In this document: positions 32,177 through 62,806 of the stretch, one piece after another
How the letters are laid out: every line of letters starts with the position of its first letter
Numbering within the stretch: the first letter of the stretch is position 1
NCBI GenBank assembly: GCA_030830695.1
Contig: JAURML010000026.1
Coordinates: 84,372 to 148,371 of the forward strand
Source of the DNA: Caenibius sp.
Lineage (GTDB): Bacteria; Pseudomonadota; Alphaproteobacteria; Sphingomonadales; Sphingomonadaceae
Reading direction: 5' to 3'
DNA length: 64,000 nt
The notes under the pieces: model-generated
The model's database searches: none
Told to the model about the DNA's origin: nothing
The model's input: only the letters and a program-made list of their open reading frames with translations
Program-made: the position numbers and the translations under genes

Positions 32177-34369
32177 TCAGGCCCGGCTTCGTGGCAGGGC
32201 CAACCGTCGTTCTGCAACCATGCTACGCAGGACTTCGGACGTGCCGCCATAGATGCTGGTCGCGGTCGCATGGCGATAACTTTCTTCTACTAAGCCGATG
32301 CCAGTGCGTCCACGCACTAGCGAGGCCGGAGCGGTAAGATCGAGAAGATCAGCGCTGTCGGAAATAAAAGTTTCGGTGGTGAACACTTTTGATGCGGGAC
32401 CGTAGGCTTCGTCCGGCGCGCCTGCGCGGCTGGCATCAAGTACGCGGCGAGCTAACGCCTCGCCGATTTCGGCATGGGCCAGCACCCGCGCGAGGCGCGA
32501 AATCAGGTCGGCATCGTCCAGCCGCCCTTCCTCGCGCGCCCATTCAAGCACTTCGGTGATCATCCGGCGCTGGTTGCGGTGATAGGATGCGCCGCCCTGC
32601 TCCATCTGCAACGCCGCAGACATCACCCGGACACCACCATCGACCGGGCCAACCCGATAGTGATCGGGGATCCGGACATCGGAATAGAAAGTGGCGTTGG
32701 TCCGCTCGTCCATGAAGGTGTGCACGGGGTGAATTTCCACACCCGGCAGATCGAGTGGGACGAGGAACAGGGTCAACCCCTTGTGCTTGGGCAGATCGGG
32801 ATCGGTGCGCGTCAGCAGGAAGACATAGCTGGCCAAGTCCGCGCCCGAAGTGAACATCTTCTGGCCATTGATGACCCAGTCGTCGCCATCGCGGACGGCG
32901 CGGGTCTGGGCCCCGAACACGTCGGAGCCACAGCCGGGTTCGGTGTAGCCAAGGCTGGCGATGATTTCGCCTCGGCCCATGCGCGGCAGCACTTCCTGCT
33001 GCAGCTCCTCGCTGCCGAACTGCATCACCAGCTTGCCAATCATCCCGGTTACGCCCCGCGGCAGGGTGGTCCATTCGAACTCCTCCCACACACCAATGCT
33101 CGCCCGGTTGGCTTCGACATCCACATCGCGCCCGCCCCATTTGGTGGGCCAGTCCGGGAAAAGCAACCCGGCCTCGCCCAGCGCCTTGCTGACGCCCCAG
33201 TCGTGGCCCTCAAAGCTGTAATGCGCCTTGGCCCGCAGTTCCGGCGTCAGCACCCTGTCGAACAGCGCCCGGGTTTCATCGGCCAGGGCCAGAGCATGTT
33301 CAGGTGTAGAAAAATCCTCTTCCATCTGCCCGGCATCGGGCAGGCAGACCGTTTCGCCCAGAAAGGCCCGGCGGCCGGCGCGCAGCAGTTCGGCAGCCGG
33401 ATCGCCCAGCGGCATAGCCCAGGCCTTGGCGCGGCGATGATAGAGCTGGACATCATATTCGTTGGTCAGGCCATAACCACCGTAGGTGTGCAACGCATGG
33501 GCCACCGCCTTCGATGCCGTGCGGGCCGACCACCAGAAAGTGAGCGAGACATTCGCCGACGCCTGCGCGCTGCCTGCCGCCATGGCCTTGAGGGTGCGGG
33601 TGATCAGAAGGTCCGAACCATCAACCTCGATGATGTCGTTGGCCAGGGGATGCGAGATGCCCTGATAGGTACCGATGGGTACCCCGAACTGGATACGCTC
33701 ACAGGCATAGACAGAGGCCTGGACCAGCGCCTCGCGAGAAAGGCCATTAAGGGCCGAGGCGACTAACAGCTTCCATTCCTCCAGCCCGGCTTCGAACGCC
33801 GCCACAGCCGTCTCGCCGCTGGCAATCACGGTTCGGCGTCCCACCGCCGGATCGAACTGGCCGATCGCATTGCCGGCAAGCGTGGCAGGTGCGGCCAGCG
33901 GAGCGTCCAGCTCCACGAGCAGCAGGAAATCGCCGTCGCGGCACACGATGGCATCGGCCACCGCGCCACCGGGGACGAGCTGGGTGCGGCCATCGGCAAC
34001 GTCGTGCAGAGCGAGCGTCAGACGCTTTTCGCCGGCACCCAGTGCCGCAATCCATTGCGCCGCCACATCGCCACCCGCGGCGGCCAGCACCCCGGCTGCA
34101 GCAATTGCTTCGGCCAGCGGGGCAGAAGCAAGCCGCCGCCCTGCCTGCGCCATCATCAGGCAGGCATCGAGCAGTCGCATGCCGCCTCCGCCGAACGCCT
34201 CGGGCACGCGCATGATCGGGGCACCCAATTCAACCAGCGAACCCCACAACTGCGAATCAAAGCCCACGGGCTCCGCCGCGCGCACCCGCGCCGGCGTCGA
34301 TTCCGCCTCGAAGAAGCGTTCAAACATCTCTTGAATTGGCCGGCTATCTTCCGGAATCGTCCAGTTCAT
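32177..34369 (-). CDS. Fused two-domain acyl-CoA dehydrogenase (FadE34-like architecture)
   Basis: About 730 residues contain two acyl-CoA dehydrogenase modules in one chain. The first (residues about 1-340) ends with HTYGGYGLTNEYDVQLYHRR. The second (about 360-730) has SLGYTEPGCGSDVFGAQT for FAD/substrate binding and the C-terminal IYGGTSEVLRSMVAERRL. Fused alpha/beta forms such as FadE34 of Mycobacterium act on bulky steroid side chains, where heteromeric dehydrogenases bind one FAD per pair of subunits. I chose ATG 34369 (MNWTIPEDS); the open frame extends to 34414 without support. Cytosolic; substrate inferred only. Confidence 0.88.
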   Translation of the reverse strand: MNWTIPEDSRPIQEMFERFFEAESTPARVRAAEPVGFDSQLWGSLVELGAPIMRVPEAFGGGGMRLLDACLMMAQAGRRLASAPLAEAIAAAGVLAAAGGDVAAQWIAALGAGEKRLTLALHDVADGRTQLVPGGAVADAIVCRDGDFLLLVELDAPLAAPATLAGNAIGQFDPAVGRRTVIASGETAVAAFEAGLEEWKLLVASALNGLSREALVQASVYACERIQFGVPIGTYQGISHPLANDIIEVDGSDLLITRTLKAMAAGSAQASANVSLTFWWSARTASKAVAHALHTYGGYGLTNEYDVQLYHRRAKAWAMPLGDPAAELLRAGRRAFLGETVCLPDAGQMEEDFSTPEHALALADETRALFDRVLTPELRAKAHYSFEGHDWGVSKALGEAGLLFPDWPTKWGGRDVDVEANRASIGVWEEFEWTTLPRGVTGMIGKLVMQFGSEELQQEVLPRMGRGEIIASLGYTEPGCGSDVFGAQTRAVRDGDDWVINGQKMFTSGADLASYVFLLTRTDPDLPKHKGLTLFLVPLDLPGVEIHPVHTFMDERTNATFYSDVRIPDHYRVGPVDGGVRVMSAALQMEQGGASYHRNQRRMITEVLEWAREEGRLDDADLISRLARVLAHAEIGEALARRVLDASRAGAPDEAYGPASKVFTTETFISDSADLLDLTAPASLVRGRTGIGLVEESYRHATATSIYGGTSEVLRSMVAERRLALPRSRA

Positions 34370-34427
34370 CACATAGTTCCCAAATCGCGGCCCGCAGCCC
34401 AAAATTGGCTGCAAGGCAAGGCAGTTA

Positions 34428-37243: not shown

Positions 37244-38239
37244 TTATTCGGCTGCGGCGTCGCTTTCGAAATCATAGAACCGCGCATATTGCTGACGATA
37301 GGCCAGCAACGGCCCATCGCCTTCGACCAATAGCGGATTCGGCACATAGCGCTTGGCGTTCCAGATCGGGATATCCTGGACAATCTGCTTCACCAGGTCG
37401 CGCATGCGGGCTTGGTTCACGCGCATCTTGCCATCGCTGAGGTTCGACTGGCGATAAAGCTTCCAGCGAATGTGCGTGTTCTCCCGGTCAATCGGCGTGA
37501 CAGTCTGCAGCAAAACGACGTGAGTCACGTCGATGAACTGGGTGATAGTCTGGCCGGGGCCGGTAGCGAAATTGTCGATCTTGCCATGCATAGGCCCGCG
37601 CGGCGTGTTCATGGTCGCCTCCACGATGTTGCGGCGAACCCAGCCATCGAGGCGGAACTCACCGCTAGGCGCGCCCGGCACTCCGTGAACCGAAGCGAAG
37701 TGGGCATGGTCCTGTCCGTTCTCGGTGATTTCCTGAACGTGGATATTGACCGACCACTCGTGGCGCTCTTCCTCGACCCATTCGCCTTCGGGACAGGGTG
37801 GCAGGGCCATCACCTCCCACTTGGGTGCGCCCTTGTTCGGGTGATACCAAACATAGACCAGCCCATCGACCTCCGCCGCAGGCCAGGCCGGCAGGCACGA
37901 CCGCTTGAGCTTGGGCGGGACGAAGCGGGTATAGGGGATCTCGGTAACACCGCCTTCACCGTTATAAGTCCAGTGATGGAAGGCGCAGCGCAGATCGTTG
38001 CCGACCACCTCGCTCGCTACGCCAAGGTGGGCGCCCAGGTGCGGGCAGAACGGATCGACGGCGCGCAACTGGCCATCCTCCCCTCGCCAGATTACGAATT
38101 CGGTACCGAAATAGCGGAAGGTCTTGCGATCGCCTACGGTGATTTCTTCCGAAGCAGCCACGGCGAACCAGCCGAAGGGCAACGGTATCTTGTCATAGCC
38201 GCGGTCAAGTGTGGCGGATTCGGGAAAGGTTTTATCCAT
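37244..38239 (-). CDS. Rieske non-haem iron oxygenase, KshA/Neverland-like
   Basis: This 331-residue oxygenase has Rieske ligands C65-P-H67 and C85-A-F-H88, and a mononuclear iron site NGQDHAHFASVH (Asn174, Asp177, His180, His185). It has the single-component layout and size range of 3-ketosteroid 9-alpha-hydroxylase oxygenases and Neverland-type sterol desaturases rather than of two-subunit benzene-type dioxygenases. No beta subunit or reductase adjoins it; the ferredoxin gene 21 bases upstream is the probable electron donor. Last gene of the long minus-strand array. Steroid or triterpenoid hydroxylation is an inference. Confidence 0.88.
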   Translation of the reverse strand: MDKTFPESATLDRGYDKIPLPFGWFAVAASEEITVGDRKTFRYFGTEFVIWRGEDGQLRAVDPFCPHLGAHLGVASEVVGNDLRCAFHHWTYNGEGGVTEIPYTRFVPPKLKRSCLPAWPAAEVDGLVYVWYHPNKGAPKWEVMALPPCPEGEWVEEERHEWSVNIHVQEITENGQDHAHFASVHGVPGAPSGEFRLDGWVRRNIVEATMNTPRGPMHGKIDNFATGPGQTITQFIDVTHVVLLQTVTPIDRENTHIRWKLYRQSNLSDGKMRVNQARMRDLVKQIVQDIPIWNAKRYVPNPLLVEGDGPLLAYRQQYARFYDFESDAAAE

Positions 38240-38260
38240 TGCTTTTGGCCCTCTTGTTAG

Positions 38261-38569
38261 TCAGTCGGCAACTATGGTGGCGGTGATACCCGCGGCAGTG
38301 GGTTCGAGTGAAAGCTGGCATGCCAGCCGGCACCCGGGCGCGGCATCGAGCGCTTCGAGCATGTCCTGTTCATCGACCGAAACCGATCCGCCTGCCCAGC
38401 CATCGCCAAGCTGGACCAAACATGTGCCGCACGAAATCTCGCCACCGCAGGTGCCGATAGTCATATCCACATGCTCGCGCATCAGGTGCATCAGGTTCTG
38501 CCCCGAACCGGCAGTCAACGCATGGGCCGTGCCGGCCTTGTCGATTATGGTAAGCGAAATATCAGACAC
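38261..38569 (-). CDS. [2Fe-2S] ferredoxin, adrenodoxin-like
   Basis: This 102-residue ferredoxin starts at GTG 38569 with AAGGA upstream. Cluster ligands are C41, C47, C50 (CGGEISCGTC, the CX5CX2C spacing of vertebrate/adrenodoxin-type clusters) and C84. It lies 14 bases after an acyl-CoA dehydrogenase gene and 21 bases before the Rieske gene. It probably feeds electrons to the Rieske oxygenase and possibly to the P450 at 24.4 kb, since P450-type ferredoxins share this ligand spacing. No ferredoxin reductase is encoded in the window. Confidence 0.92.
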   Translation of the reverse strand: MSDISLTIIDKAGTAHALTAGSGQNLMHLMREHVDMTIGTCGGEISCGTCLVQLGDGWAGGSVSVDEQDMLEALDAAPGCRLACQLSLEPTAAGITATIVAD

Positions 38570-38583
38570 AATGCAGTTCCTTG

Positions 38584-39810
38584 TCAGCGCCCGCTCGGGA
38601 TTTCACGGAAGGGCACGCCCTTGTCCAACCGGACATCGCCGGGCAGGCCCAGCACGCGTTCGGCAATGACGTTTTTGAGAATTTCATCGGTACCGCCACC
38701 TAGCCGCAAGCCCGGCGCCCACAGGAAGCGGTGCTGGAAGGCTCCGTTCGCCGCAGCGTCTTCGGCATCGACCAGCAGCCCCGACATATCGAGCAGGTCA
38801 ACCGCCTGACTCGACATATCCTGGGTGGAGTTGGACCACAGCAGCTTGCCCGCCGAGCTTTCCGGCCCCGGTGCCTCGCCCCTTGAAAGCGAGGACAGCG
38901 TACGGAAACTGGTGAGTCGCACGGCCTCGGTGCGGATGTAGTAATCAGCAAACCACTCACGGAATGCCGGGTCATCCATCACCGTGCCTTCCCACGAAGG
39001 GGTCTGCCGGGCCAGTGCCATGACATCGCGCCACGACAGCCCAGTGCCCGAACCCAGCGCCGCCCGCTCGTTCATGAGGGTTGAGATCACCACGGCCCAG
39101 CCACCATCAATTTCGCCCACCCGCTGGCAATCCGGGATGCGCACGTCGGTGAGGAAAACTTCGTTGAGTTCCGCATCGCCGGACATCATCTTGATCGGGC
39201 GCACTTCAAGACCGGGCGTAGTCATATCGACCCAGAACACCGTCAGCCCCTTGTGTTTCGGGACATCGGGATTGGTGCGGGTCAGCAATAGGCCGTAGTC
39301 CGATGCCTGAGCGCCACTGTTCCATACCTTCTGGCCATTGATCACCCAGTCATCGCCATCGCGCACGGCAGCGCAGCGTGCGCCGGCGGAATCCGATCCG
39401 CTAGACGGTTCAGAGAACAGCTGGCACCAGATCTTGTCACCGCGAACCGCTGACGGGATCAAGCTGAGCGTGAGCTCATCCTGGTTGTGTTCCAGCAAGG
39501 CAGGCAACAGGAAGTGCAGCCCGGTCATGAAATAGGTGAATTGCACCCCGGCGCGGGCTTCTTCCTGGTTGAAGATCGCTTCCTGAATGTTGGTGCCGCC
39601 CGAGCCCCCCCATTCGCGCGGCCACGATATGCAGGCATAGCCGGCATCGGCCTTGACCACCTGCCACTGCCGCGCCGCTTCCTTGTGCGCCGGGTGCCAG
39701 GTCCGCCGCTCTTCGGCTGTCAGCACGGACAGGTCAGGGGCATTACCCTCGATCCAGGCGCGCACCTCGGCGCGGTAGGCGGCTTCTTCGGGATTGTCAT
39801 CGAAGTTCAT
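38584..39810 (-). CDS. Acyl-CoA dehydrogenase (subunit of a probable heteromeric pair)
   Basis: This 408-residue protein shows QLFSEPSSGSDSAGARCAAV (FAD/substrate region), WVINGQKVWNSGAQASDY and the C-terminal GGGTDEILKNVIAERVLGL. It starts at ATG 39810 in an ATGA overlap with the gene upstream, so the two products are made in step. Paired FadE genes of this kind (FadE28-FadE29 and similar) form alpha2beta2 enzymes for steroid side chains. Its C-terminus closely matches the gene remnant at 41.0-41.2 kb. Confidence 0.9.
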   Translation of the reverse strand: MNFDDNPEEAAYRAEVRAWIEGNAPDLSVLTAEERRTWHPAHKEAARQWQVVKADAGYACISWPREWGGSGGTNIQEAIFNQEEARAGVQFTYFMTGLHFLLPALLEHNQDELTLSLIPSAVRGDKIWCQLFSEPSSGSDSAGARCAAVRDGDDWVINGQKVWNSGAQASDYGLLLTRTNPDVPKHKGLTVFWVDMTTPGLEVRPIKMMSGDAELNEVFLTDVRIPDCQRVGEIDGGWAVVISTLMNERAALGSGTGLSWRDVMALARQTPSWEGTVMDDPAFREWFADYYIRTEAVRLTSFRTLSSLSRGEAPGPESSAGKLLWSNSTQDMSSQAVDLLDMSGLLVDAEDAAANGAFQHRFLWAPGLRLGGGTDEILKNVIAERVLGLPGDVRLDKGVPFREIPSGR

Positions 39811-40937
39811 GCTGCGATCCCTTCAGCTGCGACCTGCTGCTCGATGCGGGTTGCCAGCCTGCGCTTCCAGTCACGCGGCGCGCCCACAACCAGCCCGAGG
39901 TGGCGGGCGCGGCGATAGAACAAGTGACAATCAGCCTCCCAAGTGAAGCCGATTCCGCCATGAGTCTGGATGTTTTCCTTCGAGGCCTGCCAATAGGCGG
40001 CGCTGGCCGCGACGCGGGCGGCGGCGGCTGCCAGCGGCAGTTCTGGCGCCTGGGTCGATAGGGCCCAGGCACCGTAATAGGCATTGGCCCGGCCAACTTC
40101 GTTCGCGATAAACATGTCGGCCAGCTTGTGCTTGATCGCCTGATAACTGCCGATCTGACGGCCGAAGGCATAGCGTTCCAGCGCATAGTCCCGCGCCATT
40201 TCCAGACAGCGATCCGCTCCACCGACCTGCTCGAAAGCCAGCAGCACGGCGGCATGATCCTGCACCCGGGCAAGCAACTGCGCCCCTTGTCCCGCTTGAC
40301 CGATCACTTCGCCAGCGGCGCCATCGAAATGGATGCGTGCAGCGCCGCGAGTTGGATCGAGCGTGGCGACCACCTCGCGCTGCACGGATCCCTGCGAAAG
40401 ATCGACCAGCACCAGAACCGATCCTTCGTCAGAAGCTGCGAGCACAATGGCCCAGTTGGCAGCAAGTCCATCGATTACCGGCACCTTAGTCCCACTGAGC
40501 TTTCCGTCGACGTAGCGCACTTTCAATGCATCGCTGCGCAGCACGCCGGGTCCTTCGCTCGCGGCCAGCGTCCCGATGATTTCGCCCGCGCTGACCAGTG
40601 GCAGCAGGCGCTGCTTCTGCTCCTCGTTGCCGGCGATCACCAGCGCCTCGGCAAACTGATAGATAGTGGAAGCAAAGGGAACCGGAGCGAGCGAGCGGCC
40701 GAGTTCCTCTGCCAGAGCGCAGAGATCGACATAGCCCATGCCCAATCCGCCGTAGCCTTCTGGAATCGCCGCGCCGCACCATCCCTGCTCGCAGATGCGC
40801 TTCCACAACGCCGGGTCGTGGCCGATTCCGGGCTCTTCGAGCACGGCCCGCACCGCCGTGAGCGGCGATACGGCCGCCAGGAAACGACGCGCTTCGTCCT
40901 TGAGGGACTTCTGTTCATCAGTGTAATCGAAGTTCAC
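39807..40937 (-). CDS. Acyl-CoA dehydrogenase (partner subunit)
   Basis: This 376-residue protein starts at GTG 40937 (MNFDYTDEQKSLKDEARRF). The N-terminal helical domain has GYGGLGMGYVDLCALAEELG. The C-terminal part has ALERYAFGRQIGSYQAIKHK and IQTHGGIGFTWEADCHLFYR, without the GGT-EI motif of its neighbour. The split of conserved motifs between this and the next gene, and their ATGA overlap, point to an obligate heteromer. It is the first intact gene after the pseudogene remnants of the array. Confidence 0.9.
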   Translation of the reverse strand: MNFDYTDEQKSLKDEARRFLAAVSPLTAVRAVLEEPGIGHDPALWKRICEQGWCGAAIPEGYGGLGMGYVDLCALAEELGRSLAPVPFASTIYQFAEALVIAGNEEQKQRLLPLVSAGEIIGTLAASEGPGVLRSDALKVRYVDGKLSGTKVPVIDGLAANWAIVLAASDEGSVLVLVDLSQGSVQREVVATLDPTRGAARIHFDGAAGEVIGQAGQGAQLLARVQDHAAVLLAFEQVGGADRCLEMARDYALERYAFGRQIGSYQAIKHKLADMFIANEVGRANAYYGAWALSTQAPELPLAAAAARVAASAAYWQASKENIQTHGGIGFTWEADCHLFYRRARHLGLVVGAPRDWKRRLATRIEQQVAAEGIAA

Positions 40938-41223: not shown

Positions 41224-41416
41224 GAGCGCCGGCTACAGAATGCTTCGATGAACGTGTCGCGCGCCACGTTTTGCGGGGTAGACAACCACCATTGGAGCCG
41301 GCTCGATTGATGCCGATGGCTTCCGCGCCATGATTGGCCAGCATCAATCCGGCGAACGGCCCCGGGCCTATCCCGCCAAATTCTACTATCCGGAAACTGG
41401 AAAGCGGGCAGTTCAT
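41210..41416 (-). pseudogene. Truncated N-terminus of an alpha-methylacyl-CoA racemase/CoA-transferase
   Basis: The frame begins at ATG 41416, overlapping the ligase stop as ATGA. It reads SFRIVEFGGIGPGPFAGLML then ANHGAEAIGINRAGSNGG, the hallmark N-terminus of alpha-methylacyl-CoA racemases (family III CoA-transferase fold). After about 45 residues the similarity fades and a stop comes at 41210. The catalytic domain is absent. The coupling to the ligase shows it was once a regular operon gene. Racemases of this type invert the C25 centre in sterol side-chain degradation. Confidence 0.7.
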
Positions 41417-43149
41417 GCTCCTTGCCTGGCCATGCCCTCACGGAATTGGCGCAGGAAGGTTCCGCGATCGACCTTCATCGTCGATGTACGCGGTAGTGCT
41501 TCATCCAACACGAAAATCTGCTTGGGCACCTTATATCCGGCTAGGCGTTGGCGCAGCATCCGGCGCAGTTCTTCTTCGCCCGGCAGCGCTCCATCCTTGG
41601 CAACTACCGCGGCGACCACCAGTTCACCCAGCCGTTCATCCGGGAGACCGAAGACGAGGGATTCAGCCACCCCCGGGCACTCATTGAGCACTCTTTCGAC
41701 TTCAGCGGCATAGACGTTTTCGCCGCCCGATATGATCATGTTCTTGATCCGGTCCGCAATGAACAGGCGACCGTCGTCATCAAGCCAGCCTACGTCGCCA
41801 GTATGCAACCAGCCGCCACGCAGCGTCTCGGCAGTTTCGTCCGGGAAACCGATATATTCGCGCATGACACTCGCACCGCGCAGAAGGATCTCGCCATTTT
41901 CGCCGGTGGGGGCATCGCTGTCATCCGAGCGGGCGATTCGCAGTTGCAGGGTTGGCAGAGCATAGCCCGCGCTGGTTGGATGGGCGAGGTAGTCCCGCCC
42001 GTAGATCGATGTCCCCCAGGCGCCGCTTTCGGTCATGCCATAGGAATTTGCCAGCATGACCTGTGGCATCTTGAGCCGGATCTCCTCGACAATCCTGACA
42101 TCGAGCGCCGCCGCCCCATTGGCGAGCAAGTTGATCGAACCGAGGTTGCGATCGTTAGCCAGCGGCGACCGGATCATGTCGAGCAGCATGGCCGGGACAA
42201 AGCCGAGCCGGGTGACCGTTTCGCGTTCCATCAGCGCAAGCGCTGCCTCGGCATTCCAGCGGGTCATCACGAACAGAGTGGCATGAAAGCACAAGCCGCG
42301 CAGGAACGGGGTCATGCCGCTCATGTGGAACATGGGCGAAGCGATCACCGTTGCAGCACTGGCGGCACGCCGTTCGGGCGGCACAGACTGGTCGAATTCA
42401 CGCTCGAAGGTCAGATCCTGAAGATCGGCCACCAGCCCGCCAAGCACGGCCGTATGCGCTAGTGAACCGTGGGTATGCAGCACCGGCTTTGGCCAGCCGG
42501 TCGTGCCGGAGGTAAACAGGATCGCAGCGCTGTCCTCTGGCTGGACCGGCTCGGGCGCGAAGGCCGCACCGGAATGGCGCGTGGCCGCTTGTGCCAATTC
42601 ATCTTCACCCACGCATAGGGCCGCCATGTCGTCGTGAAACGAGGACAAAGCCGTCAGTCGCTCCACATCGGCAACAATGAGCTTGGTGCCGGCACTGGTG
42701 CTGGCATGGGCCAGCTCTTCGCCCGCGCCCCGGATGTTGAGCATCGCCGCTCGCGCTCCGATCCCGGTGATCGCGATGAAGGCGGCCATCAGGTCCAGCC
42801 CTGCGGGCAGTGCAATGCCCACCGTATCGCCCCCGACGATCCCCATGTCCTTTTGCAGCCATTGCGCAATGGCCCCAGCGCGGCCGAACAGGTCAGCTGA
42901 GGAATATTCACAACCCTGATCAACCAGCGCGCGCCGCGACGGCGACCGGGCCGCCTGCAGCCATAGTTCAGTCAATGTCTGCGGGTGATTGGCGAAAACC
43001 TCGACCTGCTGTCCGCCGCGCATGGCCAGGCAGGTTTCATAAGGCCCGCCCGGCTGGATAAGCGATCGGGTAGCCAGAATGCTTGCCGGATCACGCACCG
43101 GACTTGCAGCCCGCGTCAAACAGCTTTTCTGACGCTTTGAAACCGCCAT
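41413..43149 (-). CDS. Acyl-CoA synthetase (AMP-forming)
   Basis: About 578 residues. ANL motifs are AAILFTSGTTGWPKPVLHTH, LANSYGMTESGAWG and HTGDVGWLDDDGRLFIADR, and the C-terminal catalytic region is PRTSTMKVDRGTF, where Met replaces the common Gly before the Lys. The start is uncertain. The frame is open to 43230, ATG 43149 and GTG 43098 are possible, and none has a clear ribosome site. It lies in the long array between the thiolase-like gene and the racemase remnant. It probably activates a carboxylated side chain or ring-derived acid. Confidence 0.85.
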   Translation of the reverse strand: MAVSKRQKSCLTRAASPVRDPASILATRSLIQPGGPYETCLAMRGGQQVEVFANHPQTLTELWLQAARSPSRRALVDQGCEYSSADLFGRAGAIAQWLQKDMGIVGGDTVGIALPAGLDLMAAFIAITGIGARAAMLNIRGAGEELAHASTSAGTKLIVADVERLTALSSFHDDMAALCVGEDELAQAATRHSGAAFAPEPVQPEDSAAILFTSGTTGWPKPVLHTHGSLAHTAVLGGLVADLQDLTFEREFDQSVPPERRAASAATVIASPMFHMSGMTPFLRGLCFHATLFVMTRWNAEAALALMERETVTRLGFVPAMLLDMIRSPLANDRNLGSINLLANGAAALDVRIVEEIRLKMPQVMLANSYGMTESGAWGTSIYGRDYLAHPTSAGYALPTLQLRIARSDDSDAPTGENGEILLRGASVMREYIGFPDETAETLRGGWLHTGDVGWLDDDGRLFIADRIKNMIISGGENVYAAEVERVLNECPGVAESLVFGLPDERLGELVVAAVVAKDGALPGEEELRRMLRQRLAGYKVPKQIFVLDEALPRTSTMKVDRGTFLRQFREGMARQGA

Positions 43150-43349
43150 AGCGAATGCAATGCTTCGACAATCGGTTATCCTCTCTAATCCGGGCGGTGC
43201 TAGTCCGACTGGAGAAAATTGCCACTCCAACCCGGCGACACTGCTCTTGCCTGCTTCGCCTGAACACTACTGCCACCTGACCATTCGGCAAGGCTTCAAA
43301 AAGATATCTCTTTCTGTCGCCAAAGAGAATTGGCAGGCAATCCAAGCAT

Positions 43350-44522
43350 TCAGTCTCGCGCCAGTAGCAGGGCCGCCGCCATCGGTCCGCCCCCCGAAGT
43401 CGCCACGGCCAACCGGGGCTTCCCACCGACCTGACGTGCGCCGGCGCGACCGCGCAACTGAATAACCGATTCATGCACAAAGCCAAAACCATGAAGGCGC
43501 CCCGCTCCCAGCTGCCCCCCTGCGGTGTTCATCGGCAGCTCGCCATCGCGGGCGATGCGCTGCCCGCCTTCAACAAAATAGTGGCCTTCACCCTTCGCGC
43601 AAAAGCCCAGCCCTTCGAGCCAGGTTATCGGCAGGAACGAAAAACCGTCATACAACTGCACCAGATCGACATCGCCGGTCCGGTAGTCGGTATGCTGCCA
43701 AAGTTCGGGTCCGGCGGCATAGGCAGCGGGCCATTCTGCCTGGTCCCAGCTGTAGCGTTCAACCGAACCCGACATGGCCGCAATCCTGATCGGCGTGGCA
43801 GAAATCTCGTCCAACGCATCTCCGGCCGAAACGATGAAGGCAGTCGAGCCGTCGGTAAAGCGATCGCAATCATATAGGCCGAAAGGCGTCGCGATAAGTC
43901 TGGCTGCCATGTAGCGATCGAGCGTCAGCTCCTCACGGGTGATCGCCGATGCCTGCGGATTGAGCAGGGCATTGCGCGAGGCATTGATCGCAATCGCAGC
44001 CAGATGCTCACGGGTCATGCCAAACCGCTGGACGTGGCGGGCTGCAGGGATTGCGGTCCAGCAGGCCGCCGAAAGCGCGCCAAACGGCAACAACCATTGC
44101 AGCGCGCCGCCCACCTCGCCACCGCGCGGCTGCGGAAATTCGGCCGGGCGCGAAAGCGCGGCGGCTTCATAAACTGTACGGAAGCATATCGCGTGGCGAC
44201 ACACACCGCTGCGCACCGCCATGGCGGCGGCGGCAATCGCGGAAAGCTGCGCCGGCTGCTCACCCCCGCCATAATGCCAGCGCGCCTTGATCCCCAATGT
44301 CTCGATCACGTCGATGCTGCTGACCGGCGAGAACCCCGGGGGGGTGTCCATCTTGCCGGGATAGGTGAACACACCGTCGATCTGGTCCAGCGTCAGTCCG
44401 GCATCACGCACGGCTTCGCGGATTGCATCGACGGTCAGAAGCAACGGATGACGGGACAAGCGAATGCCGACTTCCGACTGGCCGGCCCCGGTGATGAATG
44501 CTTCAACGCCAGCCATGGTCAT
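43350..44522 (-). CDS. Thiolase-like lipid-transfer protein (Ltp2-type putative aldolase)
   Basis: This 390-residue thiolase-fold protein lacks the classical thiolase Cys-His pair pattern. It shows the lipid-transfer-protein type motifs FGLYDCDRFTDGSTAFIVSA, VQLYDGFSFLPITWLEGLGF and MNTAGGQLGAGRLHGFG. In actinobacterial steroid degradation Ltp2 partners with a DUF35 protein for retro-aldol release of propionyl-CoA. Here the DUF35 gene overlaps it by ATGA (44519-44522), giving the same two-gene unit. Tyrosines near the active site are present (LYDGF), but their role is inferred. Alternative: a scaffold or a true thiolase. Confidence 0.85.
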   Translation of the reverse strand: MTMAGVEAFITGAGQSEVGIRLSRHPLLLTVDAIREAVRDAGLTLDQIDGVFTYPGKMDTPPGFSPVSSIDVIETLGIKARWHYGGGEQPAQLSAIAAAAMAVRSGVCRHAICFRTVYEAAALSRPAEFPQPRGGEVGGALQWLLPFGALSAACWTAIPAARHVQRFGMTREHLAAIAINASRNALLNPQASAITREELTLDRYMAARLIATPFGLYDCDRFTDGSTAFIVSAGDALDEISATPIRIAAMSGSVERYSWDQAEWPAAYAAGPELWQHTDYRTGDVDLVQLYDGFSFLPITWLEGLGFCAKGEGHYFVEGGQRIARDGELPMNTAGGQLGAGRLHGFGFVHESVIQLRGRAGARQVGGKPRLAVATSGGGPMAAALLLARD

Positions 44523-44923
44523 TTCGCCTTCTCGAACAGCGGGAAATGGATGTCACCCTGTTCTTCAAAGGTAACGCGTACGCGGTCACCCGCAGCCAGA
44601 TCCGCTTCCTCGCAGCCCACGATATTGGTGGTCAGATAGACACCCGGCGCGCCATCGATCGCGACCCGTGCGATGATGAAAGGTACCTCCATCCCCGGCA
44701 GCCACGGTTGGTGGTTGACCGTGAAGCTATCGACCGTGCCGGTGCCCGGAACCGCAGCAAAACCGTGATCTTCCCTGCCGCAATGACGGCACAGAGGGAG
44801 CGGCGGATGGGTCCAGCCGTCACAGCTGGGACAGTGCTGGATCAGCAGCAGCCCCTTGGCCCCGCCGGTCCAGAACGGTCGGGTAAGATCGTCAAGCCGC
44901 GGGCGCGGCCGAGTCATGCTCAT
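44519..44923 (-). CDS. DUF35 zinc-ribbon/OB-fold acyl-CoA-binding protein
   Basis: This 134-residue protein has a zinc ribbon with Cys31, Cys34, Cys45 and Cys48 (CPSCDGW...CRHC), followed by an OB-fold (GTGTVDSFTVNHQPWLPG, VPFIIARVAIDGAPGVYL). DUF35 proteins work with thiolase-like partners; the best studied case is the ChsH2 C-terminal domain with Ltp2. Its stop overlaps the start of the thiolase-like gene as ATGA, which supports an obligate complex. No MaoC-like hydratase half is fused or adjacent, unlike the mycobacterial system. Confidence 0.9.
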   Translation of the reverse strand: MSMTRPRPRLDDLTRPFWTGGAKGLLLIQHCPSCDGWTHPPLPLCRHCGREDHGFAAVPGTGTVDSFTVNHQPWLPGMEVPFIIARVAIDGAPGVYLTTNIVGCEEADLAAGDRVRVTFEEQGDIHFPLFEKAK

Positions 44924-44984: not shown

Positions 44985-45215
44985 CTAAATAATTTCACCG
45001 ATTTCTGTGCCGCAATCGAGCGTGCTGCCGGCTTCTGCTTTATGGATCAACTTACCGCTGGCGGGCGCCTCGATCTCGGTCGTGCTCTTGTCAGATTCGA
45101 GCAGATAGATGATCTGGCCTTCGGTAACGTCGGCGCCATCGGCGACAACCCATTCAGCGATCGTACCTTCGCTCATCGACATGGCAAGCTTCGGAACAGT
45201 GAGAATTGTAGACAT
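44985..45215 (-). CDS. Stand-alone lipoyl (biotinyl/lipoyl) domain protein
   Basis: This 76-residue protein is a single lipoyl domain with the modified Lys43 in ESDKSTTEIEAPASG. It starts at ATG 45215, fixed by AAGGA; an upstream in-frame extension overlaps the ribosome site. It has no linker, E3-binding segment or acyltransferase domain, so it is a carrier only. It lies 21 bases after the fused E1 gene and must be its partner. The E2 chemistry and E3 reoxidation would have to come from elsewhere in the genome, or the lipoyl group acts as acceptor in an unusual reaction. Confidence 0.9.
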   Translation of the reverse strand: MSTILTVPKLAMSMSEGTIAEWVVADGADVTEGQIIYLLESDKSTTEIEAPASGKLIHKAEAGSTLDCGTEIGEII

Positions 45216-45236
45216 GGTGATTTCCTTCTGTTGCAA

Positions 45237-47264
45237 TCAGGCCTTCATCGCTTCGTGGATTCGGGCGATGATCGAGCCGGAGTTCGGGACCTGCGACATT
45301 TCAATCGCGTTCGAATAGGCGATGGGAGCATAGGCAGCGCCAAAGCGCATGGCCGGTGCCTTGAGATCCCGCCACAATTCTTCGTTGATCGTGCTGGCGA
45401 TTTCTGCGCCGAAGCCGCAGAATTCGACCGCCGCATGGACGACCAGCGCGCGGCCGGTTTTCCGCACCGAAGTCAGCACGCGGTGATAGTCGATCGGTAC
45501 GAGGCTACGCAGGTCGATCACCTCGGCACTAATCCCTTCCTTGGCCAGCTCCTCGGCGGCCGCCAGACACTGGTACACCTGCCAGCCATAGGTGACTATG
45601 GTAATATCCGTGCCTTCGCGGCGCACCTTGGCGACGCCCAGCGGAATCGCATATTCGCCGAGCGGCACTTCGCCCTTCTGGGTGAACAGCAACATCATCG
45701 ATTCGAACATTACGCAAGGGTCAGGATCGTTGATGCACGAGGTAAGCAGGCCTTTTGCGTCGGCTGGGGTAGAGGGATAGACCACCTTGATACCCGGCGA
45801 GTGCAGCAGCCACGATTCCATCGACTGCGAATGCTGGGCGCCGAACCCGCCCATGCCGCCACCAGCCTGAACGCGGATCGTCATCGGCGCATGCGTGGCA
45901 GAACCCGACATGTAGCGTTGCTTGGCCGCGTGGTTGAAAACTTGGTCCATGCAGACACCAAAGAAGTCGGTGAACATGATTTCGGCAATCGGACTCATCC
46001 CCGCGATCGACGAGCCGATAGCCGCGCCGATTATAGCCTGTTCGGCAATCGGGGTGGGGCGAACCCGGTTCTTGCCGAATTCGGTCTGCAGGCCCTTGTT
46101 GGTGCCGAACACGCCGCCGTGCGGATCGCCCACGTCTTCACCCAGGATGAAGACTTCGCCATTCTTCGACATAGCGATCTGCTGCGCATCGCGGATCGAC
46201 TCAACCATCGACATGGTCTTGGCCTCGCCAGTCGGCTCGCCTTCATCGGCGCGCTCCGGGTACTGGCCGCGTTGGGGGACGCAGGTTACGTCAGCGAAGA
46301 CGTCGGTGAGCGTTTCCTCTGCCGGAGTGACAGGGCTGGCCATGGCTCGGGCAATTGCATCCTCGACCTCGGTCTTGGCGGCTGCGTCGATGCCTTCAAG
46401 CTCTTCTTCGCTGCAAATACCTGCTTCAGCCAACAGCGCACGGGTTTTTTCCAGCGGCGCGCGCTCCTTGGCGGCGGCAAGTACATCCTTGTCGGCATTG
46501 TAGTTATCACCCACGCCAGCGTGCGGACCCATGCGGTAGGTCAGCGCCTCGACGAAGACCGGGCCCTTGCCGGCGCGGACATGGTCGATCACATCCTGCA
46601 TGCCCGCATAGAAGGCCGCCGGATCGTTGCCGTCGAGCTGCACGCCACGGAAGCCGAGCGCCTCGGCGCGGCCGAAGAAATTGGGGCCGGCGGTATAGTC
46701 CGGGATGGGGGTATATTCGCCCCACTGGTTGTTCTGGCATAAGAAGATCACCGGCAGTTTCCAAGCACCGGCCAGGTTCATCGCTTCGTGAACTGCTCCA
46801 ATCGAAGTAGCGCCATCGCCGAAGTTGACGATGGTCACGCGGTCTTCGCCGCGCTCCTTGGCGGAGATGGCAAGGCCGTTGGCAATCGGAGCGCCCGCGC
46901 CGACAATGGCAGTGGTGACCATTGAGCCCGATGATGGATCGGAAATGTGCGGGGAACCGCCCTTGCCCTTGTTAACGCCGTCCTGACGGCCCAATGCTTC
47001 TGCAAACATCCCGAACAGATCAACACCCTTGGCAACTTGATCGTGAATACCACGATATGTGGTGACCATGTAGTCACGCTCGGTCGTGAGCTGTGCGATG
47101 GTTGCCGGAATGCACTCCTGACCGGTCATCGGCCAGTATGTGAACATGAACTTGCCTGCCGAAAGACCGGCCTGGATCGCCTTGTCTACTGCACGAATAC
47201 GCGACATCTGAACGTAGATCGCCTTGAGCACGTTTGGCTCGATCCCAAGATTTCCTTGCGCCAT
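45237..47264 (-). CDS. Fused E1 alpha-beta thiamine diphosphate dehydrogenase (2-oxoacid/acetoin type)
   Basis: This 675-residue chain joins E1 alpha (residues about 1-325) and E1 beta (about 345-675). The alpha half has the ThDP motif from GDG (149-151) to NN (178-179) and GMFAEALGRQDGVNKGKGG. The beta half has GEDVGDPHGGVFG, AGGGMGGFGAQHSQSMESWL (catalytic His) and VIDLRSLVPIDY. It decarboxylates a 2-oxo acid or cleaves an acyloin and passes the acyl group to lipoate. It is the first gene of the ten-kilobase array. Fused E1 is known but uncommon. The substrate is unknown; a branched 2-oxo acid from side-chain cleavage is possible. Confidence 0.9.
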   Translation of the reverse strand: MAQGNLGIEPNVLKAIYVQMSRIRAVDKAIQAGLSAGKFMFTYWPMTGQECIPATIAQLTTERDYMVTTYRGIHDQVAKGVDLFGMFAEALGRQDGVNKGKGGSPHISDPSSGSMVTTAIVGAGAPIANGLAISAKERGEDRVTIVNFGDGATSIGAVHEAMNLAGAWKLPVIFLCQNNQWGEYTPIPDYTAGPNFFGRAEALGFRGVQLDGNDPAAFYAGMQDVIDHVRAGKGPVFVEALTYRMGPHAGVGDNYNADKDVLAAAKERAPLEKTRALLAEAGICSEEELEGIDAAAKTEVEDAIARAMASPVTPAEETLTDVFADVTCVPQRGQYPERADEGEPTGEAKTMSMVESIRDAQQIAMSKNGEVFILGEDVGDPHGGVFGTNKGLQTEFGKNRVRPTPIAEQAIIGAAIGSSIAGMSPIAEIMFTDFFGVCMDQVFNHAAKQRYMSGSATHAPMTIRVQAGGGMGGFGAQHSQSMESWLLHSPGIKVVYPSTPADAKGLLTSCINDPDPCVMFESMMLLFTQKGEVPLGEYAIPLGVAKVRREGTDITIVTYGWQVYQCLAAAEELAKEGISAEVIDLRSLVPIDYHRVLTSVRKTGRALVVHAAVEFCGFGAEIASTINEELWRDLKAPAMRFGAAYAPIAYSNAIEMSQVPNSGSIIARIHEAMKA

Positions 47265-47892: not shown

Positions 47893-49566
47893 TCATAGTT
47901 CTTGCACACCCTCGATCACCTTGTCGGGATCGATATCCATCAGTTTGTCGTAGTTCTGGTGGAAGTTGCGAATCATGCCCTCCTGGTAAGCGGAAAGCCA
48001 GACATAAGGGGGCTGCTTGGCCTTAAGCCCAGCATGGACTGAAGGAGCGTTCATGATGTCTTGGTCGAGGATTTTGGCGAGCGAGAGCAACTCGGGAGCC
48101 ATAGTCCAGGGGTCATCAGCCCCTAGTGTGCGCAGTTTGGCCGGGGCTGGCTTGGATTTGCCCTCGGGCCAAGGAACAAGCAGCATGACATCCATGATCG
48201 ACTCATTTGGATTGTCCCCATTCGGACGGAAGCGGAAACTGATCCTGGCCCAGCCCCCCCACGGGCAGATGTTGGGGAACAGGTGATTGAACGATCCGCC
48301 ATCGTTGATTTCGGCGTCCGAATACTGTTCCACCTCGTCGCCGACGAGGCCGCGGAGGTGTTCACGCATGTAATCGGCTGAAGCATGGTAGTGCGCCAGA
48401 GCGTTTTCGCGCGGCACGGCCATTCCGCGCTGCGGGCTGCCGGCCGCCGACAAGATGCCCGCCCGCCCCCAATTGCCGAACACATCGTAGCGCATGTTTG
48501 CGCAATCGCCGCTCAGCAGCATTTGGTGGGGGTGCGTTGCAATAACGTGGTAGGCCTCCATGAAGGCCTCCATGATCACCTTCCAGTTTGCCCGGACAAC
48601 CTTCTCTACATGAGCCTGCTTGAACCGGTTCTCGAGTTTGAACTTGCGGTAGAAGTCGATCATCACCGGCCCGAGATGGTCCTCCAGCGGGCTGGCATCG
48701 GGATCGGGGTTTATAAAGACATAGCCGCCCCAGGTGCCGATCTTGGCGGGCGGCAACTGCGCGGCATCCTCGCGTACGCCAGGGAAGTCCCACTCGGTGG
48801 TGATTTCCTTGAGGGAGCCGTCAAGGTTCCAAGCCCAGCCGTGGAACGGGCAGCGGAATTCTCTCGCCTTGATCCCGCTGCAGTCCTTCAGCAGGCGCCC
48901 GCGGTGAAGGCAGACGTTCTGGTGGGCGCGAATCTCGTTTTCGCCGGTCCGCACTACGAGGTAAGACAGAGTGGCAATCCGGTAGACGAAGTAATCTCCT
49001 ACGTTGGGGATGTCATCCTCGCGGCAAGCCATCTGCCAAGTGCGCTTCCACAGTCGCTCGACCTCGCGGTCATGGAAGGCCTTTTCGTGATAGATGGCCG
49101 TGGGAATCCGGATGGGGCCGCCCGGCATCGGGCTGACGGCGCGGAAGGCATCGGGAATGAGTTCGGGTCGTCGATCGTTGTCGAGGTAAAATTCCGGCTC
49201 GATATATCCGGAAGAGCGCATACCTTCGGGGGTCATCATGCCCTTATCGGGCGTGTACGCGCCAACCAGAGGTGTCACGTCCCCTAGACGCGAACCAAAC
49301 GGCGCGATGACCGGCGCCGAGCCGTCGTGTACGCCGGCATCCGCCATTTGCCAGAGCACATCATGATCATCCGGCAGATCTGGACCTCCGACATAGAGCA
49401 GCAAGGCGGGATCGGCCTGCGTGACATCACCTTCAACCCATTCACCATCCCATTTGAAGATGCCGTAGGAGTCGGATTTGTCCCTGGAGACGCGGACCAG
49501 CCCGTCACCGAGGGATTCATAAATTGTTCCGCTGATTGGGTGTGGTACGCGCCTCAGGTTCACCAT
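47893..49566 (-). CDS. Rieske ring-hydroxylating oxygenase alpha subunit with N-terminal extension
   Basis: About 557 residues. I chose ATG 49566 because GAGGAG lies seven bases upstream. The Rieske cluster ligands are NVCLHRGR (Cys, His) and CPFHGWAWNLDG (Cys, His). The iron site is EAFMEAYHVIATHPHQ (two His) with a later Asp in LDQDIMNAPS. Before the usual start of the family (around IYHEKAFHDREVERLW) there are about 150 extra residues with an aromatic beta-rich part (GTIYESLGDGLVRVSRDK). No beta subunit or electron-transfer genes adjoin. It is divergent from the CoA ligase at 49.8 kb. Confidence 0.88.
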   Translation of the reverse strand: MVNLRRVPHPISGTIYESLGDGLVRVSRDKSDSYGIFKWDGEWVEGDVTQADPALLLYVGGPDLPDDHDVLWQMADAGVHDGSAPVIAPFGSRLGDVTPLVGAYTPDKGMMTPEGMRSSGYIEPEFYLDNDRRPELIPDAFRAVSPMPGGPIRIPTAIYHEKAFHDREVERLWKRTWQMACREDDIPNVGDYFVYRIATLSYLVVRTGENEIRAHQNVCLHRGRLLKDCSGIKAREFRCPFHGWAWNLDGSLKEITTEWDFPGVREDAAQLPPAKIGTWGGYVFINPDPDASPLEDHLGPVMIDFYRKFKLENRFKQAHVEKVVRANWKVIMEAFMEAYHVIATHPHQMLLSGDCANMRYDVFGNWGRAGILSAAGSPQRGMAVPRENALAHYHASADYMREHLRGLVGDEVEQYSDAEINDGGSFNHLFPNICPWGGWARISFRFRPNGDNPNESIMDVMLLVPWPEGKSKPAPAKLRTLGADDPWTMAPELLSLAKILDQDIMNAPSVHAGLKAKQPPYVWLSAYQEGMIRNFHQNYDKLMDIDPDKVIEGVQEL

Positions 49567-49808
49567 GATTCTCTCCTCAGGCATCATCATTCTCCCGCCA
49601 CATCGGCCACAACCGGCGTGGGATTTCGGATACCGAGTCTAACTTACTCAAGGGACCAGCAATAAGTGATCGAGTGGTTTTGCGCGACCGGACCAAGTTT
49701 TTCGATTTTGTCGCAGAGACGCTCTAGCCTGTTGAGTCGGGGTTACATATTGCGGCCTTCGCTCCTAGGCTTTCCGACACCGACCGAATCGAAGGGGATT
49801 TTTCAGAC

Positions 49809-58369: not shown

Positions 58370-59662
58370 CTATACGATCCCTGCGCCCAGCCCGACGGCC
58401 TTCCGCTCCTGAGCCTTCCGCTCTCGCCACTTGCTCTCGCGATAGACTGCTAGCACATCGATCGCACCGCCCGCTTCCATGCGCGCCTTGGCGAGGATCG
58501 GGGCTACATCGATGTTATAGGCCCGGCGCAGCGCCTGAAAGGCCATCATCGTGTCGTTGCCTTCCTGAGCAGCGTGCAGTGCGGCCCGGTCGACGAGGCT
58601 GGCTTTAGCATAGCACTGGGTAATTGCTTCGGCCGATGACAGCATCGATTCGATCGGATCGGTGACGTTGTGCGACTGGTCGATCATATAGGCCGGATCA
58701 AAGCCATCGCGCGGGTTCAGCTCGGCCTCGACCAGTTCGTTGAACACGAGGAACAGCTGGTGCGGGTTGATCGAGCCCGAATCGAGATCGTCGTCGCCAT
58801 ACTTGCTGTCGTTGAAGTGGAACCCGCCCAGCTTGCCGAAGCGGTGCAGGCGGGCCACGATCTGCTCGATGTTCACATTGGGCGCATGGTGGCCAAGATC
58901 GACCAGGCACTTGGCCTTGGGGCCCAGTTCCTGCGCGGCGAGGATCGAGCTGCCCCAGTCCGAGATCACGGTCGAATAGAACGCCGGCTCGAACATCTTG
59001 TGCTCAAGCAGCATGCGCCAATCACCCGGCAGCGCGGCATAGACCTCTGCCGCGGCATCGAGATAGCGATCAAGACTCCGCGCCAAATCTTGCTGGCCAG
59101 GGAAGTTGGTGCCGTCTCCCACCCAAACCGTCAGGTCACGGCTGCCAAGCTGCTTTCCGATTTCGATACATTCGATGTTGTGTTCCACCGCTTGCGCCCG
59201 CGCGCCGGCATCCTGCGAAGAGAGCGAGCCGTTGGCATAGGTGTGGGCCTGACCCGGCTGGTCCTGGAACGTGTTAGAATTGACGGCATCGAAACCCAGC
59301 CCAAGACTGGCAGCCTCTTCGCGCAGGGCGTTGAAGTCGCTGACCTTGTCCCACGGGAAGTGCGGGGATACGCGGGGGGTGACGCGGCTGAGCTGGTTGA
59401 TGACAGCGCAGTCTTCCAGCTTTTCGTGGATGTTGGTTGGCTCGCCCGGGATCGGGAACTTGGCAAAGCGCGTGCCACCGCGGCCCGCGCCCCAAGAAGG
59501 CACGGCAACCGAGAAGCCAGCGACGCGAGTCTTGATCGCATCGATATCGATGCCGTTTCGAGCCAGCTTGCGGCCGAGTGAGGTGTAATCGTCTTCCAGC
59601 GCATCGATCTCACGGGCGTTGGCTTGGGCGATGAGGTCGGCGGAGATAGGGAGGCCGGTCAT
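58370..59662 (-). CDS. rhaI: L-rhamnose isomerase (Pseudomonas/rhizobial type)
   Basis: This 430-residue cytosolic TIM-barrel isomerase converts L-rhamnose to L-rhamnulose. Metal ligands are visible as Glu in LLEHKMFEP, Asp and His in CLVDLGHHAPNVN, His and Asp in GGFHFNDSKYGDDD, and Asp in MIDQSHN. This matches the P. stutzeri L-rhamnose isomerase pattern rather than the E. coli RhaA family. It starts at ATG 59662 (MTGLPISADLIAQANARE). It lies four bases after the esterase gene in an operon with the fused aldolase/dehydrogenase. Confidence 0.93.
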   Translation of the reverse strand: MTGLPISADLIAQANAREIDALEDDYTSLGRKLARNGIDIDAIKTRVAGFSVAVPSWGAGRGGTRFAKFPIPGEPTNIHEKLEDCAVINQLSRVTPRVSPHFPWDKVSDFNALREEAASLGLGFDAVNSNTFQDQPGQAHTYANGSLSSQDAGARAQAVEHNIECIEIGKQLGSRDLTVWVGDGTNFPGQQDLARSLDRYLDAAAEVYAALPGDWRMLLEHKMFEPAFYSTVISDWGSSILAAQELGPKAKCLVDLGHHAPNVNIEQIVARLHRFGKLGGFHFNDSKYGDDDLDSGSINPHQLFLVFNELVEAELNPRDGFDPAYMIDQSHNVTDPIESMLSSAEAITQCYAKASLVDRAALHAAQEGNDTMMAFQALRRAYNIDVAPILAKARMEAGGAIDVLAVYRESKWRERKAQERKAVGLGAGIV

Positions 59663-59666
59663 GGGA

Positions 59667-60599
59667 TCACTTCTTTACGGGGCTGAGGAATTTGTTCATC
59701 GCCAGCCATGAAACGAACTCGTCGAGGACGAGCGTGGTGGTGGTGCCGGGACTACCAAGGCCGAAGCCGTGGTTGCCCTTCTGGTAGCCGTGCACTTCCA
59801 CCGGACGCCTTGCCTTCAGCCATTCCTGCGCGATGGCGAAGCCCTTGCTAGGGAACAGGGCATCATCGAGCGCGATGGCGTCGAACAACGGCGGAGCATC
59901 GGCCGGGACTGGCTCGGGGTCCTGCGGGCCATAGATATAGCCGACGAAGGCCGGGCGAGCGGCTGGATCGGAATCAAGCGCAACCCGGCGCGCAGTCATG
60001 GCCCCGGCGGAAAAGCCGATAATGCCGACGCGCGCCGGATCGACGTGCCACTGGGCGGCATTGGCACGGACCATGGCGATGGCGGCCCTGGCGTCTTCCG
60101 GCGCCTTGCTCTGCCGGAGCAGTTCGCCGTCCATCGGTCGGCCGATTTCCTTCATCATCTGCGTCCAGAAGAAGCGCGTGCCCTCGGCCGGATCTTTCGG
60201 CGTCTCGACCAAGCGATACTTTAGCACGAAGGCGGTAATCCCGCGATCAGCAAGAGCGCGGGCAACCTTCCAGCCTTCGTGCTCCATGGAGAGCATCATG
60301 AAAGCACCACCCGGGGCAACGATGACCGCCGACCCGTTGCCCTTGCCGCGCTTCGGCAGCACCGGGGTCAGGGTCGGTCGGGTAACGTTAAAAACGGTGA
60401 GACCGCTTGATCCTATGCTTGACCAGATTTCGGTTGCAGACGAACCGGGCGTCTGGTCGCCATAGAGCGGGATCGCATCGGGTTCGGCAGGAGCTGCTGC
60501 AGGCGTGGCCTTTGGAACCCCGGCAGGCTGCGCCAAGACAGGCGTCGAAAGGACCAGTGCTACGGCACCTGCCAGTGCAATTCCGAACCGTCTTTTCAT
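59667..60599 (-). CDS. Exported alpha/beta-hydrolase esterase, paralogue of the 18.9-kb gene
   Basis: This 310-residue protein starts at ATG 60599 (MKRRFGIALAGAVALVLST), fixed by GGGGAG; the frame is open much farther upstream, but that is a shadow of the aldolase gene. The signal peptide is followed by AIPLYGDQTPGSSATEIW, oxyanion region VIVAPGGAFMMLS, nucleophile GFSAGAMTARR and catalytic His in KGNHGFGLG. It shares its whole layout with the esterase linked to the GMC gene. Lying between the rhamnose isomerase and aldolase genes, it probably deacylates acylated rhamnosides in the periplasm. Confidence 0.88.
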   Translation of the reverse strand: MKRRFGIALAGAVALVLSTPVLAQPAGVPKATPAAAPAEPDAIPLYGDQTPGSSATEIWSSIGSSGLTVFNVTRPTLTPVLPKRGKGNGSAVIVAPGGAFMMLSMEHEGWKVARALADRGITAFVLKYRLVETPKDPAEGTRFFWTQMMKEIGRPMDGELLRQSKAPEDARAAIAMVRANAAQWHVDPARVGIIGFSAGAMTARRVALDSDPAARPAFVGYIYGPQDPEPVPADAPPLFDAIALDDALFPSKGFAIAQEWLKARRPVEVHGYQKGNHGFGLGSPGTTTTLVLDEFVSWLAMNKFLSPVKK

Positions 60600-60622
60600 T
60601 TTTCTCTCCCCATTGCTCCGGC

Positions 60623-62731: not shown

Positions 62732-62806
62732 GGAATCCCTCATATTCGAAAGTGACGGCGCGCAGGTGGCCTGAGCCGGTTCTGCTACTTGCTACACTTT
62801 TTGCTA

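Follow-up and report, generated by a model that had tools for sequence, protein, structure and literature searches.

The window, the 64,000-nt stretch of Caenibius sp. DNA analyzed in this work, encodes a TPP-dependent E1 component of the 2-oxo acid dehydrogenase type with its alpha and beta parts fused in one chain, followed by a stand-alone lipoyl protein and accompanied by neither E2 nor E3. The reading that we favour, with somewhat better than even confidence, sees in the pair part of a split, oxidative dehydrogenase for 2-oxo acids (or acyloins) in terpenoid/steroid-type catabolism; this enzyme would work with a free lipoyl carrier and in this host would borrow E2 and E3 from the housekeeping complexes. 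In the textbook 2-oxo acid dehydrogenases the lipoyl domain is covalently attached to the E2 scaffold. Judged from gene order and alignments, the split layout belongs to a widespread family; many of its members have a separate E2 core, and its E1 shows a distinctive pocket. Split E1-lipoyl-E2 genes have already been annotated piecemeal in databases; no description of a split E1-lipoyl system has been found among 5.39 million open-access papers, and a tomatine paper on Sphingobium strains contains no mention of E1-lipoyl genes.

Organization of the E1-lipoyl locus

The ORFs, coordinates and domains of the fused E1 and of the lipoyl protein with Lys43, as given in the first-pass annotation, have been confirmed:

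45237..47264, minus strand: fused E1 alpha-beta (TPP-dependent 2-oxo acid dehydrogenase type), 675 aa
46275-47264, minus strand: E1 alpha part, residues about 1-330
45240-46232, minus strand: E1 beta part, residues about 345-675
45222..45227, minus strand: AAGGAA, Shine-Dalgarno-like sequence read from the DNA, 6 nt before the lipoyl ATG
44985..45215, minus strand: stand-alone lipoyl carrier protein, 76 aa, predicted lipoyl-lysine K43 in LESDKS

The E1 comprises E1_dh (residues 19-314, 218 bits), Transket_pyr (350-525, 116 bits) and Transketolase_C (543-662, 124 bits), that is, the domains of an alpha2beta2-type 2-oxo acid dehydrogenase E1 with alpha and beta in a single chain. By alignment its catalytic set is intact (GDG 149-151, NN 178-179, E408, H248 and H478), and across its clade and the outgroup E1s described below the alignment shows no variation in the catalytic Glu, the two His or the second Asn. 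The nearest solved chains are those of pyruvate dehydrogenase (PDH) E1, and the scores against the curated NCBIfam PDH E1 models stay below the cut-offs (231-233 bits versus 394-411 for alpha, 299 versus 321 for beta). The lipoyl gene starts with an ATG at 45215, 21 nt past the E1 stop codon; a longer ORF with a TTG start (44985-45236) represents a less likely alternative. Its product matches Biotin_lipoyl with 50.8 bits and contains the E-[ST]-D-K lipoyl motif, with K43 invariant in 13 relatives, so by fold family and motif it appears to be a canonical lipoyl domain whose K43 would be lipoylated.

The genes surrounding the pair are as follows:

47893..49590, minus strand: second Rieske ring-hydroxylating oxygenase, upstream of E1
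44519..44923, minus strand: OB-fold/zinc-ribbon protein of ChsH2 type (DUF35), in the same direction as the E1-lipoyl pair
43350..44522, minus strand: Ltp2-like thiolase-fold protein, nearest solved structure 6ok1, 4-nt overlap with the DUF35 gene
41413..43230, minus strand: acyl-CoA ligase of the same gene run, true start probably internal
38584..40937, minus strand: acyl-CoA dehydrogenase pair
37244..38569, minus strand: KshA-like Rieske oxygenase and [2Fe-2S] ferredoxin

Neither a PF00198 (E2 core) protein nor a lipoamide dehydrogenase is encoded in this neighbourhood, in agreement with the first-pass annotation, and the locus does not provide a complete 2-oxo acid dehydrogenase complex with E2 core and E3 encoded together with E1. 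The Ltp2-like/DUF35 gene pair (43350-44923, minus strand) is related to steroid side-chain aldolases, with YDGF in place of YDHF and Arg at the position of Tyr344 of Ltp2; the roles of these motif residues in Ltp2 have been described (PMC12329534). The two proteins probably form an aldolase-type enzyme with altered chemistry. It had been suggested earlier that the E1 could cleave an acyl-CoA-bound ketone. This suggestion is not supported, since the E1 keeps the catalytic residues of a 2-oxo acid dehydrogenase and the neighbours that appear suited to C-C cleavage of CoA esters are the Ltp2-like/OB-fold proteins.

Further modules were recognized in the window. Between 12039 and 19878 (plus strand) genes for ThuA, Gfo/Idh/MocA, a xylose-isomerase-like TIM barrel, MFS, Gluconate_2-dh3, a GMC oxidoreductase and a hydrolase lie in a row that resembles glycoside 3-oxidation/3-keto-glycoside lyase modules; the MFS-TIM barrel-Gluconate_2-dh3-GMC set recurs in genome G119 about 1.2 kb from its E1-lipoyl pair, with GMC proteins 68% identical. 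The segments 19999-23403 and 58370-62743 (both minus strand) hold genes for a GH106 alpha-L-rhamnosidase, a xylose-isomerase-like TIM barrel and a fused class II aldolase-SDR protein, which suggests release and use of rhamnose and hence a rhamnosylated substrate. At 32177-34414 (minus strand) a fused double acyl-CoA dehydrogenase of 745 aa with two ACAD units per chain is encoded. The Rieske, CoA ligase, acyl-CoA dehydrogenase and rhamnosidase/rhamnose-type genes together fit a pathway for the breakdown of a glycosylated plant or steroid-like compound.

Distribution of the split layout

In genome G119 of the same order a fused E1 87% identical to that of the window is accompanied by a stand-alone lipoyl gene, and four more genomes of the order (G029, G058, G235 and G240) carry fused E1-lipoyl pairs 49-50% identical to it; the occurrence of the pair in these five genomes rules out chance or an assembly artefact. 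No stand-alone E2 core is encoded anywhere in the genomes of G119, G029 and G058. Such a core is present in G235 (L184) and G240 (L185), but beside a different, remote E1; in the tree this second E1 pair stands on a separate long branch that lies outside the lipoyl clade. Among 398 sampled genomes of the order, 27 encode the lipoyl protein at 105 bits or more, and a second group of lipoyl matches (82-97 bits, many in frames of 76-82 aa) recurs in one genus of the family (g3) within the same sample.

Scanning of GTDB genomes with the lipoyl alignment yielded 441 related lipoyl stretches. Among the best 80 of these 441, an E1 pair lies beside the stand-alone lipoyl gene in 64 loci and a separate E2 core of about 250 aa directly downstream of it in 40; the adjoining cores carry DHR in 39 of 40 cases and the lipoyl motif in none. 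The lipoamide dehydrogenase (E3) signature CxxxGCxPSK is found in none of these 80 loci and in five of six control loci, the sixth holding a glutathione-reductase-like protein. E3-like matches in the Paraburkholderia loci proved to be ferredoxin reductase instead; L131, the one scanned with Pfam, has Reductase_C. The first-pass annotation had named a complete E2-E3 pair next to an equivalent E1 as a case against its interpretation; such a pair was looked for and not found. In whole genomes where no E2 core adjoins the pair, a close core is encoded elsewhere in eight of 17 (52-63% identity, frames of 240-280 aa), and the remaining nine have only full-length or distant E2s. Since E3 occurs in no locus of the family and eight core-less genomes encode a close core elsewhere, borrowing of E2 and E3 in trans is the option raised earlier that fits best.

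The Paraburkholderia, Diaphorobacter and Pseudomonas clusters of E1, lipoyl and E2 core genes share with the window the E1 clade and the 76-aa lipoyl protein and differ from it by an unfused E1 and a separate E2 core. On the Paraburkholderia and Diaphorobacter plasmids separate E1 alpha and beta genes are followed by the lipoyl gene and then by a separate E2 core of about 250-275 aa; the products in the split clusters are annotated as 'lipoyl domain-containing protein' and '2-oxo acid dehydrogenase subunit E2'. In Azospirillum B510 the lipoyl protein is encoded behind separate E1 alpha/beta genes and the E2 core is absent from the locus. Among the split members a Rieske oxygenase precedes E1 in 32 loci (at least 45% identity), and a 3-ketosteroid-delta1-dehydrogenase (KstD; NF009478, 924 bits versus a cut-off of 789) precedes it in 26 loci.

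An unrelated E1 group in sugar-transport operons of Shinella (L092, 3969-9603) and Rubrobacter (L093, 2721-5042) is also accompanied by a stand-alone lipoyl protein; in Shinella the surroundings also include a separate E2 core and a copy of lipA. Carrier and E2 seem to have become separated on more than one occasion.

E1 clade and active-site pocket

All E1s encoded with the 76-aa-type lipoyl protein fall into one clade (SH-aLRT 99) apart from the acetoin, pyruvate and branched-chain E1s, and the fused E1s cluster inside it (support 89); the tree was built by a quick method with a midpoint root and includes several long outgroup branches. When the clade was aligned with 19 outgroup E1s, a set of fixed pocket differences was revealed, and the window E1 has the full clade signature (Y/W44, H74-D75, V116-T117-T118, I155, Q177, Q409 and H445). 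At position 44, which by alignment corresponds to alpha-His63 of human PDH E1, the window has Trp and the clade Tyr in place of the active-site His that is found in 17 of the 19 outgroup E1s; alpha-His63 has a role in pyruvate binding. Residues 73-75 read x-His-Asp for His-Gly-His (Ile-His-Asp in the window), position 73 being equivalent to human alpha-His92 (in the alignment from residue 48 on), next to the TPP-binding Tyr89-Arg90. Val-Thr-Thr occupies 116-118, directly before the glycine and valine contacting TPP. In addition, Gln/Glu is replaced by Ile at 155, Glu by Gln at 177 and Gln by His at 445, and position 409 has Gln. This pattern argues for a clade substrate that is neither pyruvate nor acetoin nor a branched-chain oxo acid.

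E2, E3 and lipoylation genes of the host

The host assembly is a MAG of 2.53 Mb in 200 contigs, 97.2% complete. The search for orphan E2 cores proposed in the first-pass annotation, here carried out with PF00198, revealed none and only three proteins, all of them full-length E2s (frames of 417-432 aa) with their own lipoyl domain: SucB on contig C186 and two of AceF type on C200 and C136. Lipoamide dehydrogenases are encoded after SucB and after the C200 AceF, and the active site of the third Pyr_redox_dim protein resembles that of glutathione reductase. As the genome also encodes LipA and a LipB/LplA-type gene product, the host should be capable of lipoylating the carrier, and E2 and E3 could be supplied only from the housekeeping complexes. 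The other small Biotin_lipoyl proteins contain (E)xMK motifs and are biotin carriers, and were rejected as stand-alone lipoyl carriers. The host has another fused E1 alpha-beta (contig C3, L020, 10347-12392, 681 aa), 40% identical to the window E1. It lacks an adjoining lipoyl, E2 or E3 gene, shows outgroup-type pocket residues and is placed in the outgroup of the tree.

Proposed reaction cycle and alternatives

We propose that a pathway-specific 2-oxo acid or alpha-hydroxyketone would be the source from which the fused E1 forms a TPP carbanion, and that the free carrier would then be reductively acylated on its K43 lipoyl group. Many relatives would use the separate, lipoyl-free E2 core to move the acyl group on to CoA; because a dedicated core is lacking in the host genome, a housekeeping enzyme would serve as E2 in trans, the two AceF-type cores being the most likely candidates, and the housekeeping E3 would reoxidise the carrier and close the cycle. 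In the fused subclade as a whole E2 is probably borrowed as well. AceF-type E2s usually prefer small acyl groups, which makes them a poor fit with a bulky terpenoid substrate. With the MAG 97% complete, an E2 core could be missing from the assembly. As a counterpoint to borrowing, a close E2 core is missing from the nine core-less genomes mentioned above and also from the host, G119, G029 and G058, so the transfer to CoA may be performed differently there.

One such way, which we consider unlikely, would be that the E2-less members need no E2 at all and that an alpha/beta-hydrolase or another transferase releases the acyl-lipoyl unit, after which the CoA ligase encoded in the cluster would activate the acid. 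The acetoin dehydrogenase (AcoA/AcoB/AcoC) offers a precedent: it has a PDH-fold E1 alpha/beta, its E2 need not be PF00198, and Paracoccus AcoC, labelled E2, consists of a lipoyl domain and an alpha/beta-hydrolase; the N-terminus of AcoC is the top NCBIfam match of the window lipoyl protein. A conserved alpha/beta-hydrolase is encoded near the pair in G029, G235 and G240, and in the window, G029, G058, G235 and G240 the fused-clade clusters contain CoA ligase genes or have them close by. However, that hydrolase is only 24% identical to the AcoC domain and has no close homologue in the host, G119 and G058 genomes, which led us to reject it as a universal E2 substitute, and CoA ligases are common to all such clusters, including those with an E2 core. 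Unlike the acetoin system, the window locus has no AcoC fusing carrier and hydrolase, and its E1 belongs to a clade separate from AcoA/AcoB with other pocket residues.

It seems rather improbable that these E1s are a separate subfamily of TPP-dependent enzymes whose remodelled pocket serves to cleave a bulky ring-derived ketone (a cyclic acyloin, a diketone or a large 2-oxo acid) in the catabolism of terpenoids or steroids and to load the free carrier, with a non-E2 acceptor used in the fused, E2-less branch. Doubtful to a similar degree or slightly more is acyloin or diketone cleavage by an E1 resembling that of acetoin dehydrogenase: neighbouring Rieske/KstD-type enzymes would produce a cyclic alpha-hydroxyketone or 1,2-diketone, and the E1 would open the ring and hand the acyl end on to lipoyl. 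The position of relatives directly behind a Rieske oxygenase and 3-ketosteroid-delta1-dehydrogenase and the many fixed pocket positions that differ from pyruvate and branched-chain E1s speak for it, but the acetoin E1s carry PDH-type pocket residues, not those of the stand-alone-lipoyl clade, and near the window E1 there are only Rieske oxygenases and no KstD. A degenerate or orphaned, non-functional remnant of a complete complex, as the absence of E2 and E3 from the locus might suggest, is very improbable given the intact ORFs, catalytic residues and lipoyl motif, the 87% identical E1 in another genus and a different gene context, and the presence of the same pair in many genomes.

The split 2-oxo acid dehydrogenase that we favour may be compared with further known systems. 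It shares with the PDH complex of heterotetrameric E1 type the E1 fold, the TPP motif, the active-site Glu and the two His, and differs by the separate lipoyl protein, the absence of E2/E3 genes and scores below every NCBIfam PDH cut-off. The LbpA lipoate-binding proteins associated with Hdr-like sulfur oxidation (PMC6067878) are likewise single-domain lipoyl carriers outside a classical complex, whereas the partner in the window is a TPP-dependent E1. By analogy only, EdcC of estrogen degradation, a 2-oxoacid:ferredoxin oxidoreductase, illustrates that a large 2-oxo acid from ring cleavage is oxidatively decarboxylated to a CoA ester in sphingomonads (PMC12507874); unlike the window E1, it belongs to the indolepyruvate:ferredoxin oxidoreductase family and works without lipoyl.

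In this family separate genes encode E1, the carrier and any E2 core that is present. None of the loci supplies an E3, and in some genomes a dedicated E2 is lacking as well, which makes the need for an E2 scaffold directly testable. The active-site signature and the operon link with Rieske oxygenases and ketosteroid dehydrogenase point to a C-C bond step in catabolism, which would concern sphingomonads, Paraburkholderia and Pseudomonas.
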